A stretch of 33,538 bases of DNA from Candidatus Pelagibacterales bacterium (GTDB lineage: Bacteria; Pseudomonadota; Alphaproteobacteria; TMED109). Shown in pieces: positions 1,368 through 32,391 of this stretch; positions within the stretch are counted from its first letter, which is position 1; every line of letters begins with the position of its first letter. Location: positions 36,927-70,464 of the forward strand of contig PAZF01000005.1 in the NCBI GenBank assembly GCA_002715505.1. Reading direction: 5' to 3'. The notes beneath the pieces are model-generated. The model searched no databases and was not told where the DNA came from. It saw only the letters and a list, made by a program, of their open reading frames with translations. Made by a program: the position numbers and the translations under genes.

Positions 1368-2176
1368 AAAGTTAGCTCTTTTACTGCTTGTTCAAATTGT
1401 ATCTTATTAGGATACTTATAATGCCACTCTACTTTATTCTCCATAAATGATATTCCTTTTCCTTTTAAAGTATTAGCAATTATACATTTTGGTTTTCCTT
1501 TAGTAGCCTTACAACTTAACAAAACTTGCTCTATTTTTTTATAATTATGTCCATTAGTCTCATAAACATTCCACCCAAAACTTAAAAATTTACTTTTAAT
1601 AGGTTCTATGCCTAGAGTACTATCTACACTGCCAAAGCTTTGTAACTTATTATAATCAATTATAAGTATTAGATTATCTAACTTGTGGTGTGCTGCAAAA
1701 AGTATAGCCTCCCAATTGCTACCCTCTGCCATTTCACCATCACTATTAATTACATAAACATAATTTGAAAGTTTTTTTCTTTTTTTAGCTATAGCCAACC
1801 CGCAAGCAAATGGTAGTCCATGACCTAGAGACCCAGTAGAAAATTCTACACCTGGAACTTTATGCGAAGCATGCGTCATAAAATTTGAGTTATCTCTCCC
1901 ATATTCTAATAATTTTCTTTTAGAGAAGTATCCTACATTTGCCAAAACTGCATACAAGGCTGCTGCGGCATGTCCTTTGCTTAAAATAAAAAAATCTCTA
2001 TTCGATAGGTTAGGCTTATTTGGATCAAACTTTATTATTTTTTTTCCATATAATACTACTAGTAAATCTACAATAGAAAGACTACTTGCTATATGAGAAG
2101 ATTGTGACTTAAAAATCATTTTTAATAAATCTAATCTAATATTATTAGCTAGCTTTTTTATATTTTTTTTTTTCAT
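1364..2176 (-). CDS. Transketolase-like enzyme, N-terminal (ThDP-binding PP domain) subunit
   Basis: A 270-residue protein corresponding to the N-terminal half of transketolase. KGHAAAALYA (67-76) and GSLGHG (115-120) match cofactor and substrate-pocket motifs. The metal/ThDP motif reads NSDGEMAEGS with DYN about 25 residues later, so the usual GDGE is SDGE here; Asp and Glu are kept. The C-terminal half is the separate downstream gene, joined by an ATGA overlap. The upstream formyltransferase gene ends five bases before this ATG. Directly after the start codon the coding strand has a run of 11 A residues (2163-2173), a possible slippage site. The protein should form a heteromeric ThDP enzyme with its neighbour; the substrate is not known. 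Confidence 0.85.
   Translation of the reverse strand: MKKKNIKKLANNIRLDLLKMIFKSQSSHIASSLSIVDLLVVLYGKKIIKFDPNKPNLSNRDFFILSKGHAAAALYAVLANVGYFSKRKLLEYGRDNSNFMTHASHKVPGVEFSTGSLGHGLPFACGLAIAKKRKKLSNYVYVINSDGEMAEGSNWEAILFAAHHKLDNLILIIDYNKLQSFGSVDSTLGIEPIKSKFLSFGWNVYETNGHNYKKIEQVLLSCKATKGKPKCIIANTLKGKGISFMENKVEWHYKYPNKIQFEQAVKELTL
2163..2173 (-). repeat. A11 homopolymer at codons 2-5 of the transketolase subunit gene
   Basis: Eleven identical bases (T on the plus strand, A on the coding strand) directly follow the ATG of the transketolase N-terminal subunit. It is the longest mononucleotide run I noticed in the window, where runs of 8-9 are common. A one-base slip would frameshift the gene at its start. 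Confidence 0.6.
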
Positions 2177-2181: not shown

Positions 2182-2934
2182 TCAGTAACTAAGTTTTAAA
2201 TTAATATAAACTTTTTTTCCTTCTTCTTTGAAATATGCAAAAGATTTATTTCCGAAACTTCTTGCCCTTAATATATTTATAAAGTCTTTGGTAACTACCT
2301 TTTTATTTAAATCTATATGGTCATATTTATTAACATCTGCTTTCTTTTTAAAAGAGGAATTTTTTTTTCTTTGATTATATGGTTTTATTTGATCATTTTT
2401 AATTTTTTTCCAATTTTTTTTAAATAGCTTAACAATTTCTAACTGTAATCTTTTATATAAATCTTTAGCATTATCAGTAGCCGTGCATTCAACTTTTTTT
2501 TGAATCCATATTTTTCCTGTATCTGCTCCTTCATTTAGTTCATGAAGAGTAACACCACTTTGAGTCTTATCTATAATATTGTGTACATGCGGATACCAAC
2601 CCCTGTAAGAAGGAAGTAAAGATGGATGAAAATTAATAGTTTTTTCTGACAATGAATAAAGCTTTTTATGTAATATCCATGGCCAGTAAACTGTAATTAT
2701 ACAGTTAATATTAAGTTTTTTAAAAAAACTAATATGTTTATCATTTTCATAACTTTGCCTGCCATACAATATTTTTTTGCACTTTATTCCTGATAAATTT
2801 ATCATTTTTTTATCTAGGTCTCTTTCATGTCCAGTTAAATACAAAACTGCAATTTCTAGGTTTTTTTGTTTAGAAAGAAATTTAATAATCTCTAATCCTG
2901 GTTTGTGGCTAGCAAATAATGCAATTTTATACAT
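2182..2934 (-). CDS. Formyltransferase-family protein (probable sugar N-formyltransferase)
   Basis: A 250-residue member of the formyltransferase fold shared by methionyl-tRNA formyltransferase, GART and sugar N-formyltransferases. The catalytic triad is visible: Asn101 and His103 in NFHPSLLPSYRG (101-112), and Asp138 in GADTG (136-140). It is shorter than methionyl-tRNA formyltransferase (about 315 aa) and lacks an obvious tRNA-binding C-terminal domain. That fits a small-molecule enzyme using 10-formyl-tetrahydrofolate. The upstream gene encodes a sugar aminotransferase, so formylation of a 4- or 3-amino sugar nucleotide is the natural inference. An AGGA-type ribosome site lies in the ten-base gap before the ATG. 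The Lys/Asn-rich C-terminal tail (about 185-250) matches nothing I recognise. The fold is fairly sure, the substrate is inferred. Confidence 0.8.
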   Translation of the reverse strand: MYKIALFASHKPGLEIIKFLSKQKNLEIAVLYLTGHERDLDKKMINLSGIKCKKILYGRQSYENDKHISFFKKLNINCIITVYWPWILHKKLYSLSEKTINFHPSLLPSYRGWYPHVHNIIDKTQSGVTLHELNEGADTGKIWIQKKVECTATDNAKDLYKRLQLEIVKLFKKNWKKIKNDQIKPYNQRKKNSSFKKKADVNKYDHIDLNKKVVTKDFINILRARSFGNKSFAYFKEEGKKVYINLKLSY

Positions 2935-2944: not shown

Positions 2945-4627
2945 TCAATTAAAAAATAAATTTATTTTTTCGCAAATATATTTAACTTCATTTTTAGTTA
3001 AATTTGTTCCACTTGGTAAGTTTAAAGATGAAAACCCAATTATTTTTGCAATATGATTAGTTTTATTTTTTTTGTTCCATATGGGGTATTTACTAATTGG
3101 ACTAAATACTGGCCTGCTATCAATATTATTTTTTTTTAAGTATTCAATTAATCTATCTCTTTTTTTATTAGTATTATTCTTTATAGAAGCACTAACCATC
3201 CAATAATTAGAATAAGTATTATCTTTTTCTTCTAGCAAAGATAAATGATTATTTTTATTTAAAAATTCTTTATACCAATTAAAAATTCTTCTCTTCATCA
3301 AAATCAAGTCATTTACTCTTTCCAATTGTCCTAATATAAATGCTGCTTGAATATTAGACATTTTATATTTTAAACCTGGCCCATCAATCCAGAAAGTTTT
3401 ATTAGGATTTCTTCCGTGGTCAGCTATTTTTTTTGCTATTTTATATAAATTTAAGTTATTAGTGCACAGCATACCTCCTTCTCCAGATACTAATAGTTTT
3501 GCACCTTGAAAGCTAAAAGCAGAAAAATCTCCAACGGTTCCACATTTTTGTCCAAAGTATGAAGATCCTATTGCAGGTGCAGCATCCTCAACTAATCTAA
3601 TTTTATATTTTAATGAAAGCTTTTTGAGTTGTATTAAATTAGCAGGGTTTCCATATAAATGAACAGCAATTATTGCTTTTGTTTTTTTGGTTATTAGTTT
3701 CTCTATTGAATTTACGTCAATGTTCCAGCTATCTTTTTGAACGTCAGCAAAAATTGGTGTAGCTCCCAAATATGAGACCACTCTTGCTGTTGCAACCCAT
3801 GTTATATCTGGTACTATTACCTCGTCATTTGCTGAAATATTTAATGATTGCATAGCGATATGCAAGGCCCCTGTGCAACTAGAAGTGCTGATTGCATATT
3901 TTACTCCTATATATTTGGCAAAGTTTTTTTCTAAATCTAAAATATAATTATTCCAATTTTTATTCCATCCATGCTTTACTGCATCAAAAGTTTTTAAAGT
4001 TTCTGATAAAGAAACAGATGGTCCAGCTGTAAGTATAGTTTTTTTTCCTATTTTTTTATTCTGTCCCTGCCAATAAAAGTAATTAATAGCTTTGCAGGTA
4101 GATACTTTATTGACGTCCCTCTTAAAACCTATTTTTTTAAAAAAGTTTTCTTTGGCAGAATTATTTTTTTTTATTGAAATACAAAAATTATTAACATGAT
4201 AAGTTCTTCTAAAATAATCTAATAAATTTATAATAGCCTTACTTAAAACTTTATATGATTTACATCTCACATAATCAATTTTATTGATATAAATGATTTT
4301 TTTCTGATGCAGGTAAATTAAACTTATAATTCCCAAAAAAGAACCTTTTTTATTTGCGACTACAAAGCTTATCTTAGATTTTGTAGACTTAATTGTTTCA
4401 TTAATACAGTAGAAGTTATTAAAAGTATTAAAGTTTAGATTTTGCAACTTAGTACTTAAAGGAACTAAAAAATAATTTTTATCAAACAATATTGCCTTTA
4501 TCCATAGTTCCTGTACGCTTGAAATATTTTTAAAAAATGAAAAAAAATTCTTCTGTTTAATCTTTAGTTTTTTAGAATTTTCATAATTGTGTAGAGTTGT
4601 AGTATTTTTTTCATTTATATATAACAT
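2945..4627 (-). CDS. GNAT acetyltransferase - DegT/DnrJ/EryC1 aminotransferase fusion
   Basis: A 560-residue two-domain protein. Residues about 1-180 look like a GNAT N-acyltransferase, with a central beta/alpha core and the typical motif NNSAKENFFKKIGF near the end of the domain. Residues about 195-560 are a full PLP-dependent sugar aminotransferase. They contain SSCTGALH for phosphate binding, VEDAAPA with the PLP-ring Asp, and SFQGAKLLVSGEGG, in which Lys377 is the expected Schiff-base lysine. Such enzymes aminate keto groups of nucleotide sugars; the GNAT part could acylate the new amine. A TTG at 4640-4642 is in frame, but it overlaps the -12 box of the sigma-54 promoter, so the ATG at 4627 is preferred and would lie almost at the transcript start. 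First gene of a four-gene operon. GNAT and aminotransferase are usually separate proteins. Confidence 0.85.
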   Translation of the reverse strand: MLYINEKNTTTLHNYENSKKLKIKQKNFFSFFKNISSVQELWIKAILFDKNYFLVPLSTKLQNLNFNTFNNFYCINETIKSTKSKISFVVANKKGSFLGIISLIYLHQKKIIYINKIDYVRCKSYKVLSKAIINLLDYFRRTYHVNNFCISIKKNNSAKENFFKKIGFKRDVNKVSTCKAINYFYWQGQNKKIGKKTILTAGPSVSLSETLKTFDAVKHGWNKNWNNYILDLEKNFAKYIGVKYAISTSSCTGALHIAMQSLNISANDEVIVPDITWVATARVVSYLGATPIFADVQKDSWNIDVNSIEKLITKKTKAIIAVHLYGNPANLIQLKKLSLKYKIRLVEDAAPAIGSSYFGQKCGTVGDFSAFSFQGAKLLVSGEGGMLCTNNLNLYKIAKKIADHGRNPNKTFWIDGPGLKYKMSNIQAAFILGQLERVNDLILMKRRIFNWYKEFLNKNNHLSLLEEKDNTYSNYWMVSASIKNNTNKKRDRLIEYLKKNNIDSRPVFSPISKYPIWNKKNKTNHIAKIIGFSSLNLPSGTNLTKNEVKYICEKINLFFN

Positions 4628-4637
4628 GGTTGTAATT

Positions 4638-4653
4638 AGCAATTAATATGCCA
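4638..4653 (-). promoter_or_regulatory. Sigma-54 (-24/-12) promoter of the aminotransferase-formyltransferase-transketolase operon
   Basis: On the minus strand the sequence reads TGGCAT, five bases, TTGCT, with 12 bases from the first G of GG to the G of GC. This matches the sigma-54 consensus TGGCAC-N5-TTGCA. Transcription is predicted to start near 4627, the A of the first ATG, giving a leaderless or nearly leaderless message. Confidence 0.75.
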
Positions 4654-4752: not shown

Positions 4753-4768
4753 TGGCACTTTATTTGCA
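4753..4768 (+). promoter_or_regulatory. Sigma-54 (-24/-12) promoter of the GT2-type glycosyltransferase
   Basis: TGGCAC, five bases, TTGCA is a perfect match to the sigma-54 consensus with correct spacing. The predicted start is near 4779, seven bases before the ATG at 4786. This excludes the in-frame TTG at 4777 as the true start. Confidence 0.8.
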
Positions 4769-4785
4769 GAATTATTTTGATTAAT

Positions 4786-5844
4786 ATGACTGAATATTCT
4801 TTAAGTATATGTATGCCTAGCAAAAGAAGTCTTGATGAGTCAAGAGCAAGTATTTCTTCAGCAATTAACTTCTGTGATAGTACAGGATCTGAATTAGTTG
4901 TATCTGATAACTCAGGAAGCTCAGAAAAATCAAAAATGTGGAATCAAATTCCTCTTCCTTTTATGAAGTACTTAAGCAATAAAAAAGATGAAAACTTATT
5001 ATGGTGTGATAATTGGTATAACGGTATGAAAAATTGTTCTGGAAGTTTTATAGGTATAGTTAGCGATGATGATATTTTAGTAAATATTGAAAAAAGTGTT
5101 TTAGAATATAAAGACATAAAGCATGAAGATATAGTAGGTATAAAACCTATAATATCTTTATGGAATTCACAAGTGGGAGTATACAAACAGAATAACTTTA
5201 ATATAAATGCCAATACCGCAGTAGAAAGAATAAAGCAATATCATAATCTTAATAAAGGAAATAATACTAGTTACTTTACATTCTATAGAAGTAAAATGAT
5301 CAGAGATATCTTTAAGTTATTAAAATACCATCCTACTCAGGGAGGGTATACTGATTGGTCAATAGTTTTATCTTGCGTTGCTAGTGGAAAAATTCTAGTT
5401 GATCCAAGCAAACAACTGATTTACAAAAATAGTAATTGGTTTGGAGATGACGCTTATATAAAAAAACAGATTAGTAAACTTTATGTAGAATGTGGATTAG
5501 GAGAAAAAGGATTATTAATTGCTTCCCTTCTTGATGCTTTAGATGGATTTATTTTAATTATGCGAAAAAGCTCAAATATTGCTATTGATGAAAAGATAGA
5601 AGCAGCAGAGCATGTATTAAATACTAAAATTCAGCAGTTTATTAATAATTTTGATATCAATATCCATCACAGGTTTTCTGATATTATTAAAAACAAAATA
5701 GATATTCTTAAAGTAGAAAGTAAAATAGATAGAAAACTTGATAGTTGCCTTGAAATTATATCCTCACTTTTTCCCTCATTAGAAGGTAAATATAAAAAAT
5801 TCTACAAATATTCCACAGATTTGGAGTGGGGTAATTTACTTTAA
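4786..5844 (+). CDS. GT2-like (GT-A fold) glycosyltransferase
   Basis: A 352-residue protein. Its N-terminal third has GT-A features: a beta strand opening SLSICMPSKRS, a VVSDNSG block typical of family 2 enzymes, and an acidic SDDD cluster at residues 93-96, the expected metal/nucleotide-binding DxD site. The C-terminal 90 residues are shared with the fragment at 1-276, so the two are paralogues. No signal peptide or membrane segment is apparent, so it should act in the cytoplasm on nucleotide-sugar donors. It has its own perfect sigma-54 promoter, which links its expression to flagellar genes. Flagellin or another flagellar subunit is a reasonable but unproven acceptor; LPS or another surface glycan is the alternative. 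The ATG at 4786 is preferred over the TTG at 4777 because the latter precedes the predicted transcript start. Confidence 0.78.
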   Translation: MTEYSLSICMPSKRSLDESRASISSAINFCDSTGSELVVSDNSGSSEKSKMWNQIPLPFMKYLSNKKDENLLWCDNWYNGMKNCSGSFIGIVSDDDILVNIEKSVLEYKDIKHEDIVGIKPIISLWNSQVGVYKQNNFNINANTAVERIKQYHNLNKGNNTSYFTFYRSKMIRDIFKLLKYHPTQGGYTDWSIVLSCVASGKILVDPSKQLIYKNSNWFGDDAYIKKQISKLYVECGLGEKGLLIASLLDALDGFILIMRKSSNIAIDEKIEAAEHVLNTKIQQFINNFDINIHHRFSDIIKNKIDILKVESKIDRKLDSCLEIISSLFPSLEGKYKKFYKYSTDLEWGNLL

Positions 5845-5868: not shown

Positions 5869-5886
5869 TAAACTTAAAATAGTTTA
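5869..5886. terminator. Weak hairpin between convergent genes
   Basis: TAAACT (5869-5874) and AGTTTA (5881-5886) form a six-pair stem with a six-base loop, in the gap between convergent stop codons and next to A/T runs at 5843-5860. The stem is AT-rich and short, so a role as terminator is only possible. Confidence 0.2.
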
Positions 5887-6816
5887 GTGACCTTTTATGC
5901 CTTCATAATTAGTTTCATATTGAGCAATGGCTGTATTAATCAGATTTAACATATTATAGTCTAATAAAACAGATCTTCTTGCTTCTCTAATATTTATCAT
6001 ATTGATTATATCTGGATTATTTATAGCTTTATCTATAACTTCAAAACTTTCTTCATAATTATTAATGTCTATTGAAACAAATGAACCTTTATCAAAATAA
6101 CTATCAATATTTGGACATCCATAATAAATAGGACAAGTATAACCTAGAAAAATATCAGTAATTTTTTCAGTAAACCAATTATCTATATATGAGTTTTCTA
6201 AAGCGATAGAATAATGGTATGGATCAATTGCATCTTTTTTATTATCTATAGGGTTAAAACCAAATCCAAAGAAGTCAATATGATCTTTGAAGATTTTTTG
6301 TAGTTCATTTACAAACAATAACCTTTTTTGATGACCTTCGGTCATTATTTTTGTTGATACTATAATAGAACATTTTTTTGTTTTTTTAGGTATAGAACTA
6401 TATAAATAATCACTTACATTGAAATTATTTAATTTCTCGTAAACATGACCTTTCTGCGGAACCATTTTAGCACTTATATCATAAGTCCATTGTAATGATG
6501 GAGGAGCTATTATTTGAGGAGTATTATGTTCAATATTAAAAAAAGAAAGTATTAGTGAACAATTATCTAATACATTTTTACAAGGCAACTTAATCTCTGG
6601 CGGTTCCTGTTGCAAGTAAATTATCTTTTTTCCTTTAATATCTTCTATATTGTCTATCCAAGTACCTACAATTTGCCAATCGGCGTTCATATTATTGTAA
6701 TAATATTTGTAATTGCCTAATTCACTAGAACTAGTAATAGTTTGACGAGAAATTGGCAATGACTCAAAATCTACCTTAGTTTGCGGATCAAAGAAACTTA
6801 ATGATATTTTATTCAT
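5884..6816 (-). CDS. GT10-type (fucosyltransferase-like) glycosyltransferase
   Basis: A 310-residue protein with the signature of family 10 glycosyltransferases in its C-terminal half. It reads YHYSIALENS (the Glu of ALENS is residue 207), then TEKI, then GYTCPIYYGCPNI, then SFVSIDI. These match the GDP-fucose-type nucleotide site (FENSxxxDYxTEKxxxALxxGxxPVxxG). The N-terminal half, with YLQQEPPE near residue 70, would be the acceptor-binding Rossmann-like domain. No membrane segment is evident. The gene starts nine bases after the stop of the acetolactate-synthase-like gene, with an AGGA-type ribosome site, so both share the sigma-54 promoter at 8680-8695. GT10 enzymes usually transfer fucose. 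No GDP-fucose genes are visible here, so the donor could be another deoxysugar made nearby; this is inference. Confidence 0.8.
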   Translation of the reverse strand: MNKISLSFFDPQTKVDFESLPISRQTITSSSELGNYKYYYNNMNADWQIVGTWIDNIEDIKGKKIIYLQQEPPEIKLPCKNVLDNCSLILSFFNIEHNTPQIIAPPSLQWTYDISAKMVPQKGHVYEKLNNFNVSDYLYSSIPKKTKKCSIIVSTKIMTEGHQKRLLFVNELQKIFKDHIDFFGFGFNPIDNKKDAIDPYHYSIALENSYIDNWFTEKITDIFLGYTCPIYYGCPNIDSYFDKGSFVSIDINNYEESFEVIDKAINNPDIINMINIREARRSVLLDYNMLNLINTAIAQYETNYEGIKGH

Positions 6817-6825: not shown

Positions 6826-8667
6826 CTAATTTGCTTCTATAACGTTACTATCTGAGATTATAGGTTTAATAATCATTTGCTTTAAAAATTCTTTTCTATC
6901 TAATCTAGGTTCTAGGTCTTCTATAGGACATCCAAATGCTAACTTAGGCATAATTTTTTGATTTGGATGTATAAAAACCTCAATTATTACTGCTTTTTTA
7001 GAAACTAAAGATTGTTTAATAATATTTCTTGAGTCTTTGTCTTTTTTAACACTTAAATATTTTATATTATATGCTTTTGCTATTTTTTTGTAATTAGGAG
7101 CACTAACGCCTATTCCAGAAGCATTATATCTTTTTCCTAAATATAAACTTTGAAATTGCTTTATAATTCCATAGCCACCATTATTAAAAATAAAAATTTT
7201 AATTGGAAGCTTTTCATTTACAACGGTTTGTAATTCTTGCATATTAATTTGAAAACTTCCATCTCCATCTATGCAAATAACTCTTTGTTTGTTTTTCGCA
7301 ATTGAGGCACCTATTGCCGCAGGAAATGAATATCCCATTGGAGAATTTCCAAAAGCTGAAAATACCCTTTGTCCTAGCTTTGTTTTAAATGCTTGCATAA
7401 ACCAAGTTAAATGTCCGCCATCATCGGGTATGATAATATCATTTCTTTTAAGTTGTTTTGATAATTCTTCAACAAACAAATAAGGGTTAATAAAATTTTT
7501 ATCCTCATTAAATAGTTTGCTTACGGTAGGGTATTTTTTTTTCAAAGAATTACAGTATTTAATCCAATTTTTATCATGTGAAAAACTAAAGTTTTCATTT
7601 CTGACCTTATTTGAAAATCTATTGATAAAAGATTTACAATCTTCATGAACTTCTAAATATGGCTTTAGCCCTCTTCTTTTGGAAAGCTCGCCTTTATCTA
7701 TATCAACCATAATTAGTTTTGCTTTTCTTGCAAAAGTTTCTGGTTTTCCTCCTGTAATTCTAGTATCTAACCTTGAACCTAGTGACAAAATACAATCTGA
7801 ATTCTGAATAATAAAATTGGCAGCACGTGAACCATAAACTCCAACATGCCCATAATATAGTTTGTTATTTGAACTAATTGTGTCTGTTCCACTCCATGAT
7901 GAAACAACAGGGATTTTTAAATATTTTATAAGCTTATTTAGTTCTTTTACAGAATTACTATATCTAACTCCTCCCCCTGATAGGATAACAGGTCTTTCAG
8001 AATATTTAATTATTTTATAAATTTTATTAATATCAGATAATTTAATCTTTTGATGTTTGGGTTTATTAATTATTTTCTTACTTTGCACTACTCCTTTTCT
8101 TTGTAAGCACATTGGCAGATCTAACAAAACAGGTCCTCTTCTTCCAGATTGAGAACAATTATATAAATCATTTAATACTTTATAAATATCCTCAGCTTTT
8201 TTTAGTTGTATAGATTTTTTTGTAATTGGTTTAGAGATTGAAACAATATCTGTCTCCTGAAATCCTATTTGTCTAGAATTTGAAGTACCAGGCATACCTC
8301 CTCTTTGTTCTTTCAGATTAACCTGTCCTGTTATGTGAATATTTGGTATAGAGTCAAAATAAGAACATGCAATACCTGTTATTAAGTTTGTTGCTCCAGG
8401 ACCAGATGTACTCATAGTTGCAGCAAAATTATTTTTTACTCTAGAATATGCATCTGCCATCATAGCTCCTGCTTGTTCATGTTGAACACAGATATATGAT
8501 ATGTCTTTTCTGTTAGAAAAAGAGTCAACTGCAAAAGCTATAGCTCCTCCAGTTAGAACGAAAACCTTATCAACTTTTTTTTCGGTCAAAAAATCTAATA
8601 AAATTTCAGAGACACTTTTTGTTTTGTATTTTTTACCTAATTTTTTTGTATATTTTTTAAACTTCAT
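6826..8667 (-). CDS. Acetolactate-synthase-like ThDP enzyme (YerE-like, probable sugar carboligase)
   Basis: A 613-residue protein with the complete acetohydroxyacid-synthase architecture. The Pyr domain has the catalytic Glu64 in QHEQAG and SGPGATN. The central domain has GGGVRYS and a GSRLDTR loop. The PP domain has GDGSFQINMQEL near residue 466 followed by FNNGGYG for Mg-ThDP binding. No regulatory small subunit is next to it, and it sits among sugar genes in an operon with a glycosyltransferase. In yersiniose synthesis YerE, of this family, transfers an acetyl unit from pyruvate to CDP-4-keto-3,6-dideoxyglucose, exactly the sugar that rfbFGH in this window should produce. I infer a similar two-carbon branching role; true acetolactate synthase is the alternative. 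The first 16 residues are a Lys-rich extension. The predicted transcript start is only about two bases before this ATG, and no other good start exists nearby. Confidence 0.82.
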   Translation of the reverse strand: MKFKKYTKKLGKKYKTKSVSEILLDFLTEKKVDKVFVLTGGAIAFAVDSFSNRKDISYICVQHEQAGAMMADAYSRVKNNFAATMSTSGPGATNLITGIACSYFDSIPNIHITGQVNLKEQRGGMPGTSNSRQIGFQETDIVSISKPITKKSIQLKKAEDIYKVLNDLYNCSQSGRRGPVLLDLPMCLQRKGVVQSKKIINKPKHQKIKLSDINKIYKIIKYSERPVILSGGGVRYSNSVKELNKLIKYLKIPVVSSWSGTDTISSNNKLYYGHVGVYGSRAANFIIQNSDCILSLGSRLDTRITGGKPETFARKAKLIMVDIDKGELSKRRGLKPYLEVHEDCKSFINRFSNKVRNENFSFSHDKNWIKYCNSLKKKYPTVSKLFNEDKNFINPYLFVEELSKQLKRNDIIIPDDGGHLTWFMQAFKTKLGQRVFSAFGNSPMGYSFPAAIGASIAKNKQRVICIDGDGSFQINMQELQTVVNEKLPIKIFIFNNGGYGIIKQFQSLYLGKRYNASGIGVSAPNYKKIAKAYNIKYLSVKKDKDSRNIIKQSLVSKKAVIIEVFIHPNQKIMPKLAFGCPIEDLEPRLDRKEFLKQMIIKPIISDSNVIEAN

Positions 8668-8679
8668 ATTTAATATAAT

Positions 8680-8695
8680 TGCAATGTTTATACCA
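8680..8695 (-). promoter_or_regulatory. Sigma-54 (-24/-12) promoter of the YerE-like/GT10 operon
   Basis: The minus strand reads TGGTAT, five bases, TTGCA, keeping the GG and GC doublets at 12-base spacing. The predicted start is near 8669, two bases before the ATG at 8667. It is back-to-back with the divergent sigma-54 site at 8712-8727. Confidence 0.65.
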
Positions 8696-8711
8696 ACTTG
8701 ATAATAATCAA

Positions 8712-8727
8712 TGGCATATTAGTTGCA
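8712..8727 (+). promoter_or_regulatory. Sigma-54 (-24/-12) promoter of the SDR/HAD gene pair
   Basis: TGGCAT, five bases, TTGCA with correct spacing. The predicted start is near 8738, about 17 bases before the ATG at 8755. No clear Shine-Dalgarno sequence is present in that short leader. Confidence 0.75.
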
Positions 8728-8754
8728 GATGATTACACAGTAAAAAATTAGCAA

Positions 8755-9789
8755 ATGGGTATTAAAAATAAAATTATATGTGATGATATAGCGGCTATAC
8801 TTGAAGCTGATTTGCCTTGGAAAAAGTTTAAGAACAAATCAATTTTAATTTCAGGAGGAAACGGGTTTATTGCTTCGTATATCATTAAAACACTGTTAAA
8901 AGCAAATATTAAATATAAACTAGGATTAAAGCTAATTTCTTTAATAAGAGAAAATAAAAATTCTAAAATTAAAAATGATAATTTGAAAGTTATCAAAGTT
9001 GACCTAGCTAATTTTGATAATTCTTGCTTACCGAAAACTGATATAGTTATTCATGCTGCTAGCAAGGCAAGTCCTAAATACTTTGCTAAACAAACTATTG
9101 ATATAATAAAAACTAATACGCTAGCGACAATAAATTTGCTTGAGTATGCAAAAAAAATAAAATCAGAAAAATTTTTATATATTAGTAGTGGTGAAATATA
9201 TGGGGAAATAGAAAATTACAATTCATCTATAAAAGAAGATTTTTATGGAAAAATAAATCATTTAAATAAAAGATCAGTATATGCTGAAAGTAAAAAGTTG
9301 GGTGAATTAATATGTAATAGTTATACTGAAAATAATAAATTAAAGATTTTAATAGCAAGGCCCTTTCACACATATGGTCCTGGAGTAAATTTAAAAGATG
9401 GAAGAGTCTTTGCTGATTTTGTAAATTCTGTTGTTAAACAAAAAGATATATTACTTAAGAGTAAAGGTGATAGTAAGAGGCCGTTTTGTTATATAACCGA
9501 TGCTATAGTAGGGTTATTTACTGTTTTACTTAAAGGAAGAAAATCTAATGCCTATAATATTGCTAACCCCAACTGTGAAGTAAAAATTAAAGATTTAGCA
9601 ATAGTAATAGCAAACTTGATACCAGATAAAAGAGTTAATGTGAAATTTACTAAGAAGAAACATTTAAGTAATCCATTAAAAAGACAGAATGTTTCTATTG
9701 AAAAAATTAAAAGTCTAAATTGGTTTCCTAAAGTAGGCATATATGAAGGCTTCGAGAGAACTATACAATTCTATATGAACGACTATTAA
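8755..9789 (+). CDS. Extended SDR nucleotide-sugar epimerase/dehydratase/reductase
   Basis: A 344-residue extended short-chain dehydrogenase. It has an NAD(P)-binding GGNGFIAS motif (34-41) after a 27-residue N-terminal lead, the HAASKAS block (HAA-type), and the catalytic Tyr176-x3-Lys180 in YAESK. RPFHTYGPG and the C-terminal half form the sugar-binding region. This resembles UDP-glucuronate decarboxylases, dTDP-glucose dehydratases and 4-ketosugar reductases, and which of these it is cannot be decided by eye. It is divergent from the YerE-like gene, with which it shares an 87-base region carrying two back-to-back sigma-54 promoters. It could reduce a 4-keto or branched acetyl sugar in the CDP-dideoxyhexose route. 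That is inferred from context only. Confidence 0.82.
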   Translation: MGIKNKIICDDIAAILEADLPWKKFKNKSILISGGNGFIASYIIKTLLKANIKYKLGLKLISLIRENKNSKIKNDNLKVIKVDLANFDNSCLPKTDIVIHAASKASPKYFAKQTIDIIKTNTLATINLLEYAKKIKSEKFLYISSGEIYGEIENYNSSIKEDFYGKINHLNKRSVYAESKKLGELICNSYTENNKLKILIARPFHTYGPGVNLKDGRVFADFVNSVVKQKDILLKSKGDSKRPFCYITDAIVGLFTVLLKGRKSNAYNIANPNCEVKIKDLAIVIANLIPDKRVNVKFTKKKHLSNPLKRQNVSIEKIKSLNWFPKVGIYEGFERTIQFYMNDY

Positions 9790-9855
9790 TAATTTAATTA
9801 ATATATTATTAGATAAATAATTTATAATAATTATCAAATTGTTTATAGTGAAAGT

Positions 9856-10539
9856 ATGGAATATAACAAAGTTTTTAAAATTGCTGCATTTGACTTAGAT
9901 GGAACTCTCTTAGATAGTGCTGATGACTTGATTTACTCCCTTAATCTTCTTTTAAAAGAAAAAAATCAATCTCCTATGAAAAAAAGTAATATTTATAGAT
10001 TAGTAGGAAATGGGGCATTGGCAATGATTAGGGAAGCTTATAAGTTGAATAGCAATAATGAAAAAGATATTGACTGGAAAAAGTTGCAAGAAAGATTTTT
10101 AGAAATATATAAAACTCAATTTCTTAATAAATCTACTTTATATCCTCATACAAAAGATACTCTAAAGAGTTTGAGGGAAAATAATATTAAGATGATTGTT
10201 GTTTCTAATAAGCCAAGCTATTTTGTAAATAAAATTTTAGAGCACTATAAGATTTCTAAATACTTTGATGCTGTAAGTGGAGGAGATACTTTTAGGTATA
10301 GAAAACCAGACCCAAAGCATTTATTTTCTACTATAGAACAAACTGGTATAAAAAAATATAGTTGTTGTTTCATAGGAGATAGTATAAACGACGCACTTTG
10401 TGCAAAAAAAGCGAATGTAAGGTTGATACTTTTAAAACACGGGTATAGTCTTCACAACTTAGATAAATTTAATGCTGACTACGTACTGTCTAATCTAAAA
10501 AACTTGGCTTCTAAAATCTGCAAACTACTTTATGAATAA
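9856..10539 (+). CDS. HAD-superfamily phosphatase (phosphoglycolate phosphatase-like)
   Basis: A 227-residue HAD hydrolase. Motif I is DLDGTLLDS at 13-21 with nucleophile Asp13 and acid/base Asp15. Motif II is the VVSNK stretch, motif III the Lys of RKPDP, and motif IV is GDSINDA. A helical cap lies between motifs I and II. Length and motifs fit the Gph/phosphoglycolate phosphatase group, but HAD specificity is poorly predicted by sequence. It lies 66 bases after the SDR gene and may be co-transcribed with it. Its last ten bases overlap the 3' end of the convergent rfbH gene. It might dephosphorylate a sugar phosphate in this pathway or be a housekeeping repair enzyme. Confidence 0.82.
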   Translation: MEYNKVFKIAAFDLDGTLLDSADDLIYSLNLLLKEKNQSPMKKSNIYRLVGNGALAMIREAYKLNSNNEKDIDWKKLQERFLEIYKTQFLNKSTLYPHTKDTLKSLRENNIKMIVVSNKPSYFVNKILEHYKISKYFDAVSGGDTFRYRKPDPKHLFSTIEQTGIKKYSCCFIGDSINDALCAKKANVRLILLKHGYSLHNLDKFNADYVLSNLKNLASKICKLLYE

Positions 10540-11885
10540 AGTTCACAATATTTTTCTAAGGTTTTGTATGTATGTAATAAGTGTTTTTTTCTGAGTCCAG
10601 GATAAATTCCTATCCAAAAACTATTTTTCATAATTCTATTACTAATACTTAGGTCTCCTACTACTCTATATTCCTGCTTCAACATATATGGTTGCTTAAT
10701 AATATTACCTCCAAATAGCAATCTAGTTGATATACCATTTTCTTCTAAATAGTTAACTAGATGATGCCTATTTATTTTACTATTACTTTTTATAGTTAAA
10801 GGAAAGCCAAACCATGATGGTTTACTATTAGCTGTTGCTTTAGGTAAAATAAAATGTTTTTTTAATTTAAATAGAAGGTTATTTAGATAGAGAAAATTTT
10901 TCCTTCTTTTTTCAATAAATTCTTCTAGCCTTGAAAACTGAGCTAATCCTATAGCTGCCTGAATATCTGTAATTTTTAAATTATATCCTAAATTAGAGTA
11001 AGTATATTTATGATCATAACCATGAGGAAGTTGTCCTAGTTTCCAATTAAATCTTTTTTTACAAGTATTATCACAACCGGTTTCACACCAACAATCTCTC
11101 CCCCAATCCCTTATTGACTCAATTATTTTTTTTAATTTGGATGATTTGCAAAAAATGCCTCCACCTTCTCCCATTGTAATATGATGAGCAGGATAAAATG
11201 AAAGTGTCGCTATATCGCCAAAAGTTCCTACATTTTTTCCATTATATTCTGCACCTAAAGCATCACAGCAATCTTCGATTAAATATAAATTATATTTTTC
11301 AGCAAACTTTTTAATTTTATTTAGATTAAAAGGGTTACCTAAAGTATGTGCTATAAAAATAGCTTTTGTTTTTTTTGTAAGTGCTTTCTCTAAAAGGGTT
11401 TCATTTATATTATAATTGCTAATTTTTGCGTCTAAAAAAACAGGAATTAGACCATTTTGTATTATTGGATTTATTGTGGTTGGAAATCCCATAGCACAGG
11501 TAATTATTTCATCACCTTTATTTAATTTTTTATTACCTAATTGATTACTACATAAAGCTGAAATAGCTAATAGGTTTGCAGAAGACCCTGAGTTGCAAGT
11601 AAGAAAGTATTTTATTCCTAAAAAATTTGACATTTTATTTTCAAATTCTTTATTAAATCTTCCTTCCGTAAACCATCCATCTAAACAAGCGTCTACAGCA
11701 TTTAAAATCTCTTCTTTTCCTATAACCTTTCCCGAAACAGGTACTTTATTATAATTTATCTTGTTTTTATTTTTTGAGTCCAGGTAATCTGATACTGCCT
11801 CAAAAACTCTTTTTCTTTCCTCTGCTGAAGTTTCTTCTTTTATTTCATCTTTTACATTTGTACAGTTAATAATATCTCTAAGCAT
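10530..11885 (-). CDS. rfbH: CDP-4-keto-6-deoxy-D-glucose-3-dehydrase (E1, RfbH/DdhC/AscC)
   Basis: A 451-residue enzyme of the DegT fold that uses pyridoxamine phosphate and an iron-sulfur cluster to remove the C3 hydroxyl of CDP-4-keto-6-deoxyglucose. Two diagnostic features are visible. First, the usual Schiff-base lysine is replaced by His: SFYPAHHITMGEGG, where His234 aligns with the Lys of true aminotransferases. Second, there is a Cys cluster CWCETGCDNTC around residues 264-275, which binds the 2Fe-2S cluster in E1. The start overlaps the end of rfbG by eight bases. The reductase partner E3 (ddhD/ascD) is not in the window. The product is the precursor of abequose, paratose, tyvelose, ascarylose and yersiniose. 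It is the last gene of the rfbFGH operon. Confidence 0.95.
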   Translation of the reverse strand: MLRDIINCTNVKDEIKEETSAEERKRVFEAVSDYLDSKNKNKINYNKVPVSGKVIGKEEILNAVDACLDGWFTEGRFNKEFENKMSNFLGIKYFLTCNSGSSANLLAISALCSNQLGNKKLNKGDEIITCAMGFPTTINPIIQNGLIPVFLDAKISNYNINETLLEKALTKKTKAIFIAHTLGNPFNLNKIKKFAEKYNLYLIEDCCDALGAEYNGKNVGTFGDIATLSFYPAHHITMGEGGGIFCKSSKLKKIIESIRDWGRDCWCETGCDNTCKKRFNWKLGQLPHGYDHKYTYSNLGYNLKITDIQAAIGLAQFSRLEEFIEKRRKNFLYLNNLLFKLKKHFILPKATANSKPSWFGFPLTIKSNSKINRHHLVNYLEENGISTRLLFGGNIIKQPYMLKQEYRVVGDLSISNRIMKNSFWIGIYPGLRKKHLLHTYKTLEKYCELYS

Positions 11886-12948
11886 AAATTTTATCTCTAG
11901 TATTAATTAATTTACAGTAATCTTTAATAAGATCTTTAGTTACTAAATATGGACTCTCTTTTTTTAGGACTCTTTTATACCAGCAAGCAGTTTGAAAAAT
12001 CGATTCATTAAATTCTATCATGGAAGACCAGGAAAGATTAATCTTAGCTTTGGTGCTATCTAAATTTAAAAATTTTTTTTCTAAATATTTATTATTATTT
12101 ACAATCTTAATTTTTTTAATATCAAATGTTTTCAAAAATAATTTAGTTACCTCTAAAACAGTTTTGTTTTCATTGTCAAATGACCCTATATTGAAAGAAT
12201 CAAAACTCTTTTTACTATTTATTGTATCAAGACCTACTAATAGATATCCTAATATTGTGTCTAATACATAACTCCATGGCCTTGTATGATTAGGATTTCT
12301 AAGAACGGGAGTAGTTTTATTTATAACTGATTTAACTAAATCAGGAACAATTCTATTTTTAGACCAATCCCCTCCTCCAATCACATTTCCTCCTCTTACA
12401 GTTCTCACTCTCATATTTTTTGATATACTAAAGTATGAATTACTTAAAAGTTCACAAACAACTTTAGATATACTGTAAGGGCAGTTTCCGTTTAAGGAAG
12501 ATTTTTCAGTGAATTTTTTTATCCTATTATTAGAATTATCATATACCTTATCAGAGGTAACTATAATTAATGGCACAGTAGGAAATTGCTTATAAATGAT
12601 ATCTAGAAGATTCAAAGTACCATTTATATTAGTAGTAAATGTATCAAAAGGTTTTTCATAACTGTCTATAACTAGAGGCTGAGCAGCTAGATGAAAAATA
12701 AAATCAGGCTTATTTTCTAGAATGGCTTTTTCTAACTTTTTATAATCTCTAATATCTCCCCAATATTGGTTAATATTATTAATAGTATTATAATCAAAAA
12801 CAGATTTTTCCCACTTTATCTTGTCAGAAAAACCTATAACATTAGCACCTAGTTCCTTTAAAAAAACAGCTAGCCATGCACCTTTAAATCCGGAATTTCC
12901 AGTTATAAATACCTTTTTATTTTTATAAAATTTAAGCTTGTTTAACAT
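11878..12948 (-). CDS. rfbG: CDP-glucose 4,6-dehydratase
   Basis: A 356-residue extended SDR that converts CDP-glucose to CDP-4-keto-6-deoxyglucose. The NAD site reads GNSGFKGAWL (17-26), a form typical of RfbG/DdhB. The catalytic pair is Tyr158-x3-Lys162 in YSISK, and GGNVIGGGDWS with RNPNHTRPWSYV are hallmark RfbG blocks. The gene overlaps rfbF upstream by 17 bases and rfbH downstream by eight, indicating tight translational coupling. Length matches the family. It acts in the cytoplasm as the second step of the CDP-3,6-dideoxyhexose pathway. Confidence 0.95.
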   Translation of the reverse strand: MLNKLKFYKNKKVFITGNSGFKGAWLAVFLKELGANVIGFSDKIKWEKSVFDYNTINNINQYWGDIRDYKKLEKAILENKPDFIFHLAAQPLVIDSYEKPFDTFTTNINGTLNLLDIIYKQFPTVPLIIVTSDKVYDNSNNRIKKFTEKSSLNGNCPYSISKVVCELLSNSYFSISKNMRVRTVRGGNVIGGGDWSKNRIVPDLVKSVINKTTPVLRNPNHTRPWSYVLDTILGYLLVGLDTINSKKSFDSFNIGSFDNENKTVLEVTKLFLKTFDIKKIKIVNNNKYLEKKFLNLDSTKAKINLSWSSMIEFNESIFQTACWYKRVLKKESPYLVTKDLIKDYCKLINTRDKIYA

Positions 12949-13750
12949 TTTTTCTAAAATGATAAATATTTTTAAACTCTGAGTTATTTTTTTTCCAAGG
13001 AGCTGTGCCTCTGTCCCATAGCTTATTAAGAATTAATTTTTCTCTCAAAGTATCCATTGGTTGCCAAAATCCATTATGTTTAAAAGACAATAATTCTTTT
13101 TCTTTTGCTAATCTTGGCAAAGGACCTTTTTCCCACGCTTCCGAATGATCTTTAATATAACTTAATACTTTTTTTTCTAAAACAAAAAAGCCTCCATTTA
13201 TCCAACCGCTTTCACTTTTAGGTTTTTCTATGAAACTTTTTACAACATTATTATCTATATCTATTGCCCCAAACCTTGCTAATGGTCTTACGGCTGTAAC
13301 AGTTGCCAACTTTTTGTGTTTTTTATGAAAGTTTAATAATTTTAAAATATTTACATTACTTAATCCATCTCCGTAAGTAAGCATGAAAGGCTCATCTTTT
13401 TGTAGAAACTTCCCAATTTTTTTTACTCTTCCTGCAGTTTGTGTATTTAGTCCCGTTTGCGCTAAAGTTAATTTCCAATTCTTCTTATTTTTATTTATAG
13501 TCTCTATTTTTCCATCAGAAGATATTATACACGTGCCATTTTTAAGATTGTAGTCTTTAAAATAAGATATTATTTCACTTCCTTTATATCCTAAACATAT
13601 TATAAAATCATTATGACCGAAAGACATATACCAATTCATGATATGTTCAATAATTGGAATACCACCAATTTCTACCATCGGTTTTGGCCTGACTGATGTT
13701 TCTTCTGCTAATCTTGAACCTAAACCACCTGCTAAAATAACAACTTTCAT
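12932..13750 (-). CDS. rfbF: Glucose-1-phosphate cytidylyltransferase
   Basis: A 272-residue nucleotidyltransferase that makes CDP-glucose from glucose-1-phosphate and CTP. The N-terminal LAGGLGSRL motif (6-14), followed by RPKPM, is the nucleotide and phosphate site. GYKGSEI, TYGDGLSN and NGGFFV with VLE match RfbF/DdhA rather than the dTDP or UTP enzymes. It is the first gene of the rfbFGH operon. An AAAGG ribosome site lies six bases before the ATG. A sigma-54 promoter at 13772-13787 predicts a start about 11 bases upstream. The flagellin gene ends 40 bases upstream on the same strand, so read-through from flagellin is also possible. Confidence 0.95.
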   Translation of the reverse strand: MKVVILAGGLGSRLAEETSVRPKPMVEIGGIPIIEHIMNWYMSFGHNDFIICLGYKGSEIISYFKDYNLKNGTCIISSDGKIETINKNKKNWKLTLAQTGLNTQTAGRVKKIGKFLQKDEPFMLTYGDGLSNVNILKLLNFHKKHKKLATVTAVRPLARFGAIDIDNNVVKSFIEKPKSESGWINGGFFVLEKKVLSYIKDHSEAWEKGPLPRLAKEKELLSFKHNGFWQPMDTLREKLILNKLWDRGTAPWKKNNSEFKNIYHFRKNVKQA

Positions 13751-13771
13751 AAAAAACCTTTAATAAAAGTT

Positions 13772-13787
13772 TGCAATAAGCATGCCG
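13772..13787 (-). promoter_or_regulatory. Sigma-54 (-24/-12) promoter of rfbFGH
   Basis: The minus strand reads CGGCAT, five bases, TTGCA at correct spacing. The predicted start is near 13761, leaving an 11-base leader that contains AAAGG before the rfbF ATG. It starts four bases after the flagellin stop codon, leaving no room for a terminator in between. Confidence 0.7.
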
Positions 13788-13790: not shown

Positions 13791-14570
13791 CTAAGATAGT
13801 AAATTTACCTTGAAATTCTCATTAACATTTGCTTGTGCAACCAGAGAAAGTGATATTTTATTTAACATCATATTTTTGGTTAATATGGCTGTTTCAGCAG
13901 CATAATCAGTCTCTACAATAGAATCAGCAGCCGCACTCATAATTGCAGAAGCAGCATACGCAATATTTTCCCTTGCCCTGAGTGACTGTATCCCTCCAGC
14001 TATTTCACCTAAATTTAAAGCCACCTCAGCTGTCATTGCTGCTCCTGAGGTATCTGCATTAGATGCCTCAGTAAGAGAGGAAATTGAACTTACAGTTCCT
14101 GTTGTCAGAGATATCGTGCCTCCATCATCTGTAACGCCAGCAGTAAAATTAATTTTAGTAGCACCCAACATAGAAATACCATTAAAAGTAGTTCCAGTTA
14201 CAATAGAATTAATATTTGTACTAATTGTTGCGGTTTCTGCATTTAGTGCCGCTATATCTGTTGTTGATAATAAAGTATTATTATTATAAAGTGCTCCTAG
14301 TTCTTCCAGTCGCTGAGCAAGTGAAGCAATTTCATTTAACGAGGCTTCCGCCACTAATAATGCATCTATTGCCTGTCTTGCATTGTTTGCAGCTGCTCTC
14401 CAGCTATCTGACCTAGCTTTTAATGTGTTTGCTATGGATTGTTTTCCAGCTTCCTGTCCCCCCGCTGTAATTTTACCAGTGATAAGCCTGCTTATACTTT
14501 CATTTACTTTAGGTATAGCTAATCTACTACCTAGATTTGCTAAAATTGCCGAAATATTACTATCACTCAA
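13791..14570 (-). CDS. Divergent flagellin
   Basis: A flagellin of about 259 residues. The N-terminal region has the flagellin rhythm: SLxEIASLAQRLEELG, then TxxIALN and TTFNGISMLG. The C-terminal D1/D0 helix reads ADSIVETDYAAETAILTKNMMLNKISLSLVAQAN, seen here in pieces. The central variable region is only about 50 residues, Thr/Ser/Gly-rich, and could carry O-linked glycans. The canonical DDAAGLA block is not recognisable (TAGGQEAGK instead), so the protein is divergent. An in-frame TTG at 14582 overlaps the ribosome site; GGAG at 14577-14580, six bases before the TTG at 14570, favours that TTG as the start. It lies between flgL and rfbFGH, next to sugar genes. A specialised paralogue with the main fliC elsewhere is possible. 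Confidence 0.85.
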   Translation of the reverse strand: MSDSNISAILANLGSRLAIPKVNESISRLITGKITAGGQEAGKQSIANTLKARSDSWRAAANNARQAIDALLVAEASLNEIASLAQRLEELGALYNNNTLLSTTDIAALNAETATISTNINSIVTGTTFNGISMLGATKINFTAGVTDDGGTISLTTGTVSSISSLTEASNADTSGAAMTAEVALNLGEIAGGIQSLRARENIAYAASAIMSAAADSIVETDYAAETAILTKNMMLNKISLSLVAQANVNENFKVNLLS

Positions 14571-14692
14571 ATTATACTCCAAAAAAAGTCTTTTATATAT
14601 GAAACGACTTATATTTAAAATTTTTAGAGTTTTTTCTGGCAGTATTAAAATTTTTTAAATATTATAAATATAATTTTTTTAAGGTCGTATTT

Positions 14693-16189: not shown

Positions 16190-17461
16190 TTATCTTAAAA
16201 ATTGGAATAAACTTAAATTAGAAATCTTAACAAAAGCTTGCTGGCTAGCTTGTAGGCCTGTAATTTGTCCTTGTAACTCTGTTACTAAGGCAGCCAAATC
16301 TGCATCAGAAATATCCGACATATCCTTTTCTACCGCAATAGTTCTTTGAGCAATTAATTCTCTTTGCCTATCTAAAGAATTTGTCCTAGCACCAATTATA
16401 GCCTTTTGGTTAGCTATATGTTCCAAAACTTTGGTAATATCATTAAGTCTATTTTGAATAGTTTGGTTTTTATCATATAAAACCTGTGGTACACCCAAAG
16501 AATTTCCAGCTCCATCTATAGCGTCAAAAGTTAGAAAAGATTTAGGCTCCTTTTCAGATTTATCAATTCCCTCTACTTGAAGGTCCTTTATAGTTATAGG
16601 ACCATTTTTTGAATCTTCTAAAGTTATTGTATTTCCTGATAAAGTTGCATTTATATTTAAACCAGAACTGTTAATAGCTGATACAACTCCTGAGAGATCG
16701 GTGCTAGGTAAATCAACAGATATATTTGCAGTAGATACATTATCAGCTAGAGTAAAGCTGAAGTTTCCTGGATTACCATTTTCTATTTTAAGTGTTGCTT
16801 TACCTGTGGCCTTAGCTTCCACTACACTTCCTGCCGCAGTTCTAATTGAATTAATTATATCTTCTAGAACATTAAACATTGGTGCTACTGATTCGTCAGA
16901 CTTTACAGACATAAAAACACTGCCACCATCTAATGTAGTTCCTACGTTCCTTGTTTCTGAAACTGCTACGGAATTAGTTCCTCTATCTCCTTTATATTCA
17001 ATAACTCCTTTACTATTTTTTTCGAAAGGCTGGGTTCCTGTATGATAGCCTCCAAATATGAAAGCGCCGGAACTATCTGCTGAATTAGCAGTGCTTAACA
17101 TTTCCTCTTTCATTTCAGTAAGCTCTAAGGCTAAAGCCTCTCTATCTTGAGCTCCAAACGTATCGTTTGCTGCTTGAATTGTTAATTCTTTAGCTCTTAT
17201 AATTAAATTTGTAATAGCTTGTAAAGCATTATCTGCTATCGTTAATCTATTTATAGCATTGTCAGCATTTCGAGAATACTGATTAAATCTTTCTTTTACT
17301 TGCTGTAGGCCTGATAGTTCAACAGCTCCTATAGGATCATCTGAAGCTTGAATAATATTTTTTCCACTAGATATTCTATTCTGCAAAGATTGAATATCCT
17401 CATTCAATTTGCTAAATCTTTCTACCTGTTGTTTATTAAATAATTGAGTGCTTACTTTCAT
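16190..17461 (-). CDS. flgL: Flagellar hook-filament junction protein FlgL (HAP3)
   Basis: A 423-residue HAP3 joining hook cap zone and filament. The N-terminus MKVSTQLF and then RISSGKNIIQASDDPIGAVELSGL is the typical flagellin/FlgL D0-D1 start, and FIFGGYHTGTQPF is a FlgL hallmark. The C-terminal helix DISDADLAALVTELQ closes the coiled coil. The middle has a flagellin-IN-like segment (about 220-290), making it somewhat longer than the commonest FlgL proteins. The gene follows flgK by three bases and ends the minus-strand flagellar series. It is exported by the flagellar type III apparatus, so the absence of a Sec signal is expected. Confidence 0.95.
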   Translation of the reverse strand: MKVSTQLFNKQQVERFSKLNEDIQSLQNRISSGKNIIQASDDPIGAVELSGLQQVKERFNQYSRNADNAINRLTIADNALQAITNLIIRAKELTIQAANDTFGAQDREALALELTEMKEEMLSTANSADSSGAFIFGGYHTGTQPFEKNSKGVIEYKGDRGTNSVAVSETRNVGTTLDGGSVFMSVKSDESVAPMFNVLEDIINSIRTAAGSVVEAKATGKATLKIENGNPGNFSFTLADNVSTANISVDLPSTDLSGVVSAINSSGLNINATLSGNTITLEDSKNGPITIKDLQVEGIDKSEKEPKSFLTFDAIDGAGNSLGVPQVLYDKNQTIQNRLNDITKVLEHIANQKAIIGARTNSLDRQRELIAQRTIAVEKDMSDISDADLAALVTELQGQITGLQASQQAFVKISNLSLFQFLR

Positions 17462-17464
17462 TCA

Positions 17465-20400
17465 TTAAATCCTATCTATTAAAGCATCAAATAGCTCTCT
17501 AGCTGTTTGCAAAACCCGTGCCGATGCTTGGTATGCCTGTTGGTATTCAATTAATTGTGCAGCTTCTTCATCCATGTTGACTCCACTAAGTTCTGAAGCA
17601 GATGATGCTGCTGCATCTTTTATCATTTCAGCAGAACTCAAATTTAAATTTGTGCTTTGTACTGAAGCTCCAACTGAGGCAACTACTTCTGAAAATAACT
17701 CTTGAAAATTTCCTTTTCCTTCTAAAGAATATTTATCTTCTTGTAAATCCAACATTGAAAGTATATTTCTTCCATCACCAACTCCTCCTAAATTATCACT
17801 TATGGTAAAGCTGTCTTGAACTTTTGGTGTTCCATTAATTTTTAGATTATATCCAGCAATTTTAAATCTTCCAGTATCCGACAATGTCCTTTCTGCAATT
17901 GTATGCCCAGTATCAGTATCCTTTATATGAATTAATTTATTATTAGTTTTATCTACAGTAAAAGTTAAATTATCTTTTTCTTCTTCATTAGGTAAATCTT
18001 TAGTTGTAAAAGATGCTGAAAGTCTTCTAGCTGCTCCACCTCCTTTGACTATAATTATAAGTTCTTCTGCTGGAAGATTTTCCAATTCTATAGAATGACC
18101 TATCCTTCCTTTTGAAACATTTGCATCAAAATTAATATTTACTGGTTTTCCATTATTACTTAAGACTCTAATCTTACTATCTACTAAACCTATTGTATAA
18201 GGATGAACTTTAATGCCAAATTTTTCGTTGTTCGTTGAATCTTCAACAAATGAAATTTCATGTAAGGGCGCTGTATCTGTTTTTCTAGTAATAGAAATAT
18301 TTTTATCTGTTGAGTTCCATTGAAAATTTACATCGTTTAAATATATCTGTCTTCCGGAACTAGCTCCACTAGGATCATATAAATCAAAAGAATGATCACT
18401 TTCTGCACCTCCATTAGTAGTGGTAAGTTTTAAATTAGCTTCAATTGCAGAGTCAACTGCAGTAACAACAACATCCTGAGAACTAGTAGCTGTAGAGATG
18501 ATTTTATACGCACTTCCAGTCCACTTTACCTCAACACCTGATATTCCTGAAGCTCCATTAATTGCAGTTTCTATAGCAGTTGCTATATCTACATTCGATG
18601 TATAAGTTGCATTAGGTAGAGCAAGGCTTCCTGAAGCAGTTCCGTTAATTGTTACTTGAAATGTATTCCCACTTGAGGGTATTGTTAGTGTAGAAGCTGA
18701 ACTAACAACTGTCGCTGCGCTACCTAACCAGGAAGCATCTGAGTATTTTACTCTGTATTTACTTATATTTGTGCTAATTCCACCGTTGGAAGCTGTAAGT
18801 TTAGCATGAGTTTCTAAAGCAGTACTTACTGATGTTACTTCTACAGAAGCAGAGGAGGTAGAATTATGCGATACTATTTGATAGCCGCCGCTGGTTCCTT
18901 CCCAAAGCACACTTACTGACTTACCAGCTGCTAATAGTGTACTGTCATTATTTATAGCTTCCTCTAATTCACTAGCAAAAGTTGTATTTGAGTTGTAAGT
19001 AGCATTTGGAATAGTAATTGTTCCAGACGCTACATCATCTACTTTAATTGCTACCGTGTTAGTTCCTGAGAGAGTAATTGAAGCACTACTTAGATTTGAG
19101 GCAATCCCTCCTTTCCAAGAACCTGTTTTAACCTTTACATCAAAAAAATCTCTGTTAGTTGGATTATTAGTTACTGACTTTCCCTCAATATTTGCAATTG
19201 AGCTATTTAAACCAAGACTGGTTTTTGAAGTGGTATTTTGTGAACTACTTGGAAAAATTATTTGACTAGCAGAAACAGAGCCTACTCCTACTATACCTAA
19301 TTGATATCCATTTAATGACTCACTAGCACCATTAGCTACACTTAGTTTTAATTTACTTTCTATAGTGCTGTCTATAGAGGTAATTTTGACACTTGCTACA
19401 GTTGTATCACTTATATTATAAGTTTGTCTTCCTGTGTTAGATACAATTTCATATTTTGTTCCTGTCCATTTAACACTTACAGATTTACTTGCACTGCTTA
19501 AGGTAGAATCTGAATTTATTGCTGTTTGTAAAGCTGAAGCAACAGCAGAATTAGATGAGTAAGTTGTAGCAGGCAATGTAATAGTACCAGAAGATGTACC
19601 ATCTACAGATATTTTAAAAGTATTACCACTAGAAACTACTAAACTATTTTCTGATGTAATTTCAGTAGCATTAGCTCCTGACCAACCTGATACTGGAGTG
19701 AAAAAGCCATTTAATCTTCCCTCTTCTCCTCCGCTAACAGTTACCTCATTTTCTTTAGTCTCTAAAGTATAAGTTTGATTTTCAAATTCTATACTTAATT
19801 TTGTTCCAGAAACAGGTAAAGTATTTATAACATTTCCTACTATTCTTATATCTGGAGACTCTTTTCTAACATCCACTAGATGTGCTTTTAATACTTCTTC
19901 GCTATTAATAGTATCAAGGCTATCTAAATTAACCTGCGACATAAAAACTGAAGACCCATCAACGGCAGGTAATTTAAAATGTACAACTCCAGTTCCTTTT
20001 GTTGCAAAAGTTCCATCATTAGAAGAAGCTGTTTTATCAGCTGCTCCAAAGCTTAAATGATCTATAGTTAAAGTTTCTCCTGTATCAGACCATTCAAAAA
20101 TTCCTCTTGCATTATCAAAACCTAAACCACTTGCATCACCTGTAAGATTTGAACTACCGTCAGTACTAGTCAAAGCAAAGTCTACTGCGGATGATAATTT
20201 TATGGCCCCTGTAAAAACTGCAGAATTGCTTGATGATGATGAGCTTAAGGATATTGATGAGCTAGTATTTCTATAATATTGGTCTAGAACAGTTGCTGTG
20301 GTACTGTTTGGTGATGTAAAATTAGTTATTTTGATATCTTCACCATCACTATTTTCTAAAATTATTCTTTTCTTGTCAGAAGTTATAATAGCTTTAACAC

Positions 20401-22807: not shown

Positions 22808-22808
22808 T

Positions 22809-23153: not shown

Positions 23154-23163
23154 TTTATTTACC

Positions 23164-24285: not shown

Positions 24286-24295
24286 AATTACCTCA

Positions 24296-32387: not shown

Positions 32388-32391
32388 AATT

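Follow-up and report, generated by a model that had tools for sequence, protein, structure and literature searches.

Branched sugars bearing a tertiary alcohol have been described in LPS, in glycolipids of the envelope and in antibiotics, and we know of none on flagella. Among the closest described systems is the yersiniose A pathway, ddhABCD-yerE-yerF, of Yersinia pseudotuberculosis O:VI, which is also predicted in Pseudomonas WCS417 (PMC4509608); these sets lie in O-antigen loci. In Clostridium butyricum DSM 10702, a flagellar island is predicted to make CDP-paratose with RfbF, G, H and S (PMC13317340). The pathway there ends at the reductase RfbS, and as no ThDP enzyme is mentioned in the main text, its sugar would be unbranched. 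Enterobacterial flagellin glycosylation islands, of type 23 and of the GT41 types, include CDP-4-keto-6-deoxyglucose genes and GT41 proteins as flagellin glycosyltransferases; the text names no 3-dehydrase RfbH and no ThDP or acetolactate-type enzyme (PMC4875605). In Shewanella oneidensis, flagellin is left unmodified by deletion of sfmB from sfmABCDE; SfmB is a ThDP enzyme encoded beside the NeuB-type SfmA, an SDR and a methyltransferase, and CDP-sugar genes are not mentioned in the text of that study (PMC3765264).

Here we analysed a 33,538-nucleotide stretch of DNA (the window) from a Candidatus Pelagibacterales bacterium, a marine bacterium with a small genome in which genes for a predicted branched sugar adjoin a flagellin gene. 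A preliminary description had read positions 6826-13787 as a candidate branched CDP-3,6-dideoxyhexose pathway tied to a flagellum. That reading is supported, with yersiniose itself as a candidate only, and the genes it named were recovered at the same positions together with a HAD phosphatase gene that it had passed over. Similar to the yersiniose A pathway, the window encodes RfbF, RfbG, RfbH/E1, a YerE-like ThDP enzyme and an SDR. By contrast, no ddhD (E3) gene is linked to it, its SDR is only a candidate YerF equivalent, and the set lies in a sigma-54 flagellar island rather than an O-antigen locus. Like the C. butyricum island, it places CDP-3,6-dideoxyhexose genes within a flagellar glycosylation island. 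The gene identities, motifs, clade, regulon and linkage described below are established by this analysis. The features, with comparisons to genomes G002, G003 and G005, are as follows.

492-2176, minus strand: transketolase in two pieces, N half 1364-2176 and C half 492-1367, in a second sugar operon (open reading frames and family matches)
2182-2934, minus strand: sugar N-formyltransferase of the second sugar operon (family matches)
2945-4642, minus strand: fusion of GNAT and LegC/PseC-type aminotransferase, heading the second sugar operon (family matches; sigma-54 site 4639-4653)
4777-5844, plus strand: GT2-like protein with an SDDD motif (no Pfam match; exact sigma-54 site 4753-4767)
5884-6816, minus strand: GT10-like glycosyltransferase (Glyco_transf_10, 40.6 bits)
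6826-8667, minus strand: YerE-like ThDP carboligase, the proposed C-4 branching enzyme (PDB matches, trees, F505)
8681-8695, minus strand: sigma-54 site of the ThDP-GT10 unit (motif; same in G002)
8712-8726, plus strand: sigma-54 site of the SDR-HAD unit (motif; same in G002)
8755-9789, plus strand: extended SDR, candidate branched-sugar ketoreductase (Epimerase family)
9856-10539, plus strand: HAD phosphatase, phosphoglycolate-phosphatase-like (family match; kept at the G005 locus, 54%)
10530-11885, minus strand: rfbH (ddhC, E1), CDP-4-keto-6-deoxyglucose 3-dehydrase (NF011936, 688 bits, cut-off 423)
11878-12948, minus strand: rfbG (ddhB), CDP-glucose 4,6-dehydratase (TIGR02622, 340 bits, cut-off 278)
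12932-13750, minus strand: rfbF (ddhA), glucose-1-phosphate cytidylyltransferase, the CDP-glucose maker (TIGR02623, 330 bits, cut-off 300)
13773-13787, minus strand: sigma-54 site between flagellin and rfbF (motif; kept in G002 and G003)
13791-14582, minus strand: short flagellin, directly upstream of rfbF (Flagellin_N, 45 bits; same layout in G003)
16190-32778, minus strand: flgL, flgK, flgJ-like, flgI, flgH, flgG, flgF, flgE, flgD, flgC and flgB, adjoining the island (open reading frames; names assigned by sequence reading)

The ThDP enzyme had been placed in the YerE family, and our comparisons bear this out. Its top PDB matches are the YerE-like lyases PpYerE (5AHK, 300 bits) and JanthE (8RPH, 291 bits), the nearest solved structures and our stand-ins for Yersinia YerE, and like such lyases it keeps the catalytic Glu and the ThDP motif. 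With the IlvB equivalog model TIGR00118 it scores 422 bits, under the cut-off of 538. A phylogeny, proposed earlier as the check on whether it groups with IlvB, places it outside the IlvB clade, and an AU test rejects the IlvB grouping (p=0.0003). Position 505 is Phe, as in PpYerE, whereas Trp occupies this site in each of the 20 IlvBs compared. An ordinary ilvB-ilvH-ilvC cluster lies elsewhere in the genome, on contig C3. Together, the cut-off, the AU test, Phe505 and the separate cluster exclude an identity as IlvB. Identity to PpYerE and JanthE is low, and the position of PpYerE relative to IlvB shifts from tree to tree. The window enzyme, known from sequence, forms a subclade of its own together with SAR11 enzymes. 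These nearest relatives come from SAR11 genomes without flagellins, indicating that the enzyme is not inherently flagellar. Its gene is linked to 4-keto-3,6-dideoxy sugar genes in the window, in G002 and in most loci: rfbF, rfbG or an RfbH-like gene lies within 10 kb in 46 of the 57 ThDP-enzyme loci found (manual count), and a strict E1 is present in 27 of the 57.

RfbF, RfbG and RfbH were identified by scores above NCBIfam equivalog cut-offs, and rfbF shares 68% identity with its G005 counterpart. In RfbH, His replaces the PLP lysine, in SFYPAHHITMGEGG, and the [2Fe-2S] motif C-X57-C-X1-C-X7-C is present, indicating a true E1. Making a 4-keto-3,6-dideoxy sugar requires an E3 reductase (RfbI/DdhD) besides RfbFGH. 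The earlier proposal that rfbFGH give CDP-4-keto-3,6-dideoxyglucose was therefore right about the three genes but incomplete as a pathway, as no E3 gene was found in the gene cluster or the window. Genome-wide there is one FAD_binding_6 protein, with Fer2-FAD-NAD order, encoded on the unlinked contig C9. No model names it E3, and orthologues occur at 50-57% identity in G001, G002 and G005. It is the sole E3 candidate in the genome.

The sigma-54-type motif YGGYAYN5TTGC has 10 matches in the window against 0.25 expected, and the genome, which has rpoN, carries 26 sites against 1 in the control; chance matches are thus excluded. Sites precede the flagellins, flgB, flgG, flgL, fliG and every glycan unit of the island, and this pattern is kept in G002, G003 and G005. 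Sigma-54 promoters on all of the pathway genes had been claimed, and we found one site each before the ThDP, SDR and rfbF genes, with rfbG and rfbH transcribed from the rfbF promoter; the SDR gene (8755-9789, plus) is indeed divergent to the ThDP gene (6826-8667, minus). The sfmABCDE genes, by comparison, have a FliA (sigma-28) promoter (PMC3765264). A PII gene likewise has a sigma-54 site upstream, and the regulon thus extends beyond flagellar functions. In the adjoining flg genes, the FlgL N-terminus matches Flagellin_N. The island is linked to the flagellar genes and, judging by promoter motifs, co-regulated with them.

The linkage recurs elsewhere. G003 has the order flagellin-rfbF-rfbG-rfbH and G005, from a different genus, has fliD-flagellin-rfbFGH-ThDP, with a YerE-like enzyme that differs from that of the window. 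An O-antigen locus joined to flagellar genes by assembly error is unlikely, since the G003 junction lies on a single contig and the G005 linkage is similar. In Clostridia, YerE-like genes lie within flagellin loci: two Oscillospirales loci have flagellin, rfbFGH and ThDP together, and a Lachnospiraceae genome has fliD-fliS-flagellins-NeuB-ThDP. At L142, no match could be made between the flagellins on the Robinsoniella contig and the ThDP locus. A NeuB-type synthase gene adjoins the ThDP gene in G005, Clostridia and gammaproteobacteria, and the sfmABCDE gene set, as described, resembles the G005 and Clostridia sets. Within the host, neither Wzy_C (O-antigen polymerase) nor an ABC2 exporter was found on C5, the 70-kb contig that holds the window. 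Other contigs carry LPS-type genes, with Wzy_C on C15 and ABC2 transporters on C8, C9, C16 and C28, and these could share the nucleotide sugar. The flagellar tie drawn in the preliminary description is upheld by the common sigma-54 regulon, by linkage kept in other genomes and by a contig free of Wzy_C and ABC2 exporter genes.

SDR homologues adjoin YerE-like genes in other genomes (for example at loci L146, L150 and L224). The GT10-like gene follows the ThDP gene by 10 bp in the same direction, and such genes also lie near YerE-like genes in L104, L105 and L108. The GT2-like gene has a second copy (G000:C5:36147-37202) and an orthologue at the G005 flagellar locus; its structure prediction is of low confidence (pLDDT 54), and a PDB search with its profile returned chance matches only. 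On contig C12, a GT41-TPR protein gene, also with a sigma-54 promoter, adjoins flagellins. These three are the candidate flagellin glycosyltransferases, with a putative link to this sugar.

We propose a pathway in which each reaction, donor and acceptor is predicted from sequence. RfbF would make CDP-glucose, RfbG would convert it to CDP-4-keto-6-deoxyglucose, and RfbH with an unlinked reductase would yield CDP-4-keto-3,6-dideoxyglucose. The YerE-like ThDP enzyme would decarboxylate a 2-oxo acid, in the simplest case pyruvate, and attach the acyl unit at C-4, which would yield a branched sugar with a tertiary alcohol; the new side-chain ketone would probably be reduced by the SDR. RpoN would switch on the sugar genes along with the flagellum. 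Before export, a glycosyltransferase in the cytoplasm would load the sugar, single or as part of a short glycan, onto flagellin; the candidates are the GT2-like protein, the GT10-like protein and the GT41-TPR protein encoded next to the main flagellins. Since the sugar genes adjoin a flagellin gene and share a switch with the flagellum, the rare branched sugar probably decorates the filament. We put the probability of this whole reading, in which RfbFGH, E3, the YerE-like enzyme and the SDR act under RpoN to place the sugar on flagellin, at about two in three.

The branched CDP-sugar might instead be made with flagellar timing and used in LPS or capsule, or both. All characterised YerE-like sugars in one review belong to LPS or the envelope (PMC12247030), the SAR11 genomes with related enzymes have no flagellins, and the genome does hold Wzy_C and ABC2 transporter genes on those other contigs. 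However, sigma-54 control is shared with the flagellins, flagellin adjacency is found in two genera, polymerase and exporter are missing from the contig itself, and similar islands occur in flagellated Gram-positives, which have no LPS; we consider this destination unlikely. Still less probable is an ordinary acetolactate synthase next to rfb genes for a plain 3,6-dideoxyhexose (paratose, abequose or tyvelose). The recurrence of rfb neighbours beside the ThDP enzyme, its sub-cut-off IlvB score, the AU rejection, the diagnostic Phe and the separate ilvB-ilvH-ilvC cluster all argue against it, even though TIGR00118, at 422 bits, is the top NCBIfam model for the enzyme, the SDR could act as a simple 4-keto reductase, and CDP-paratose is the predicted product of the C. 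butyricum flagellar island (PMC13317340).

A variant compatible with filament decoration concerns the donor: an ErwE-like use of a 2-oxo acid other than pyruvate would give a longer branch and not yersiniose. ErwE favours 4-hydroxy-2-oxo acids (PMC12247030), such an acid could come from the NeuB-type synthase that G005, Clostridia and gammaproteobacteria encode beside the ThDP gene, and the conserved HAD phosphatase would suit a phosphorylated precursor. By contrast, no NeuB gene lies beside the window's ThDP gene, and its product and the NeuB-linked enzymes fall in separate subclades. We regard this variant as possible but less likely than not.

Together with the SAR11 enzymes, the window enzyme constitutes an uncharacterised subclade of YerE-like enzymes. 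Such enzymes are wanted as catalysts for chiral tertiary alcohols. Our literature search found nothing on flagellin with acetolactate synthase and CDP. The novelty suggested earlier for flagellar use is partly anticipated (PMC13317340, PMC4875605, PMC3765264); we found no report of a YerE-like plus RfbFGH set within a flagellar regulon. More tentatively, YerE-like lyases may be recurrent flagellar-glycan enzymes, recruited independently in Alphaproteobacteria, Clostridia and perhaps Shewanella (SfmB), that build C-branched 3,6-dideoxyhexoses on flagellin from 2-oxo acids, which in several lineages a neighbouring NeuB-type synthase would supply. If the island decorates flagellin, filaments would gain a type of sugar new to them, and the island would represent an LPS-type module transferred into a flagellar regulon. 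It would also provide a chemical hypothesis for the ThDP enzymes encoded in clusters for flagellin modification, among them Shewanella SfmB, which since 2013 has had a mutant phenotype but no assigned reaction (PMC3765264).

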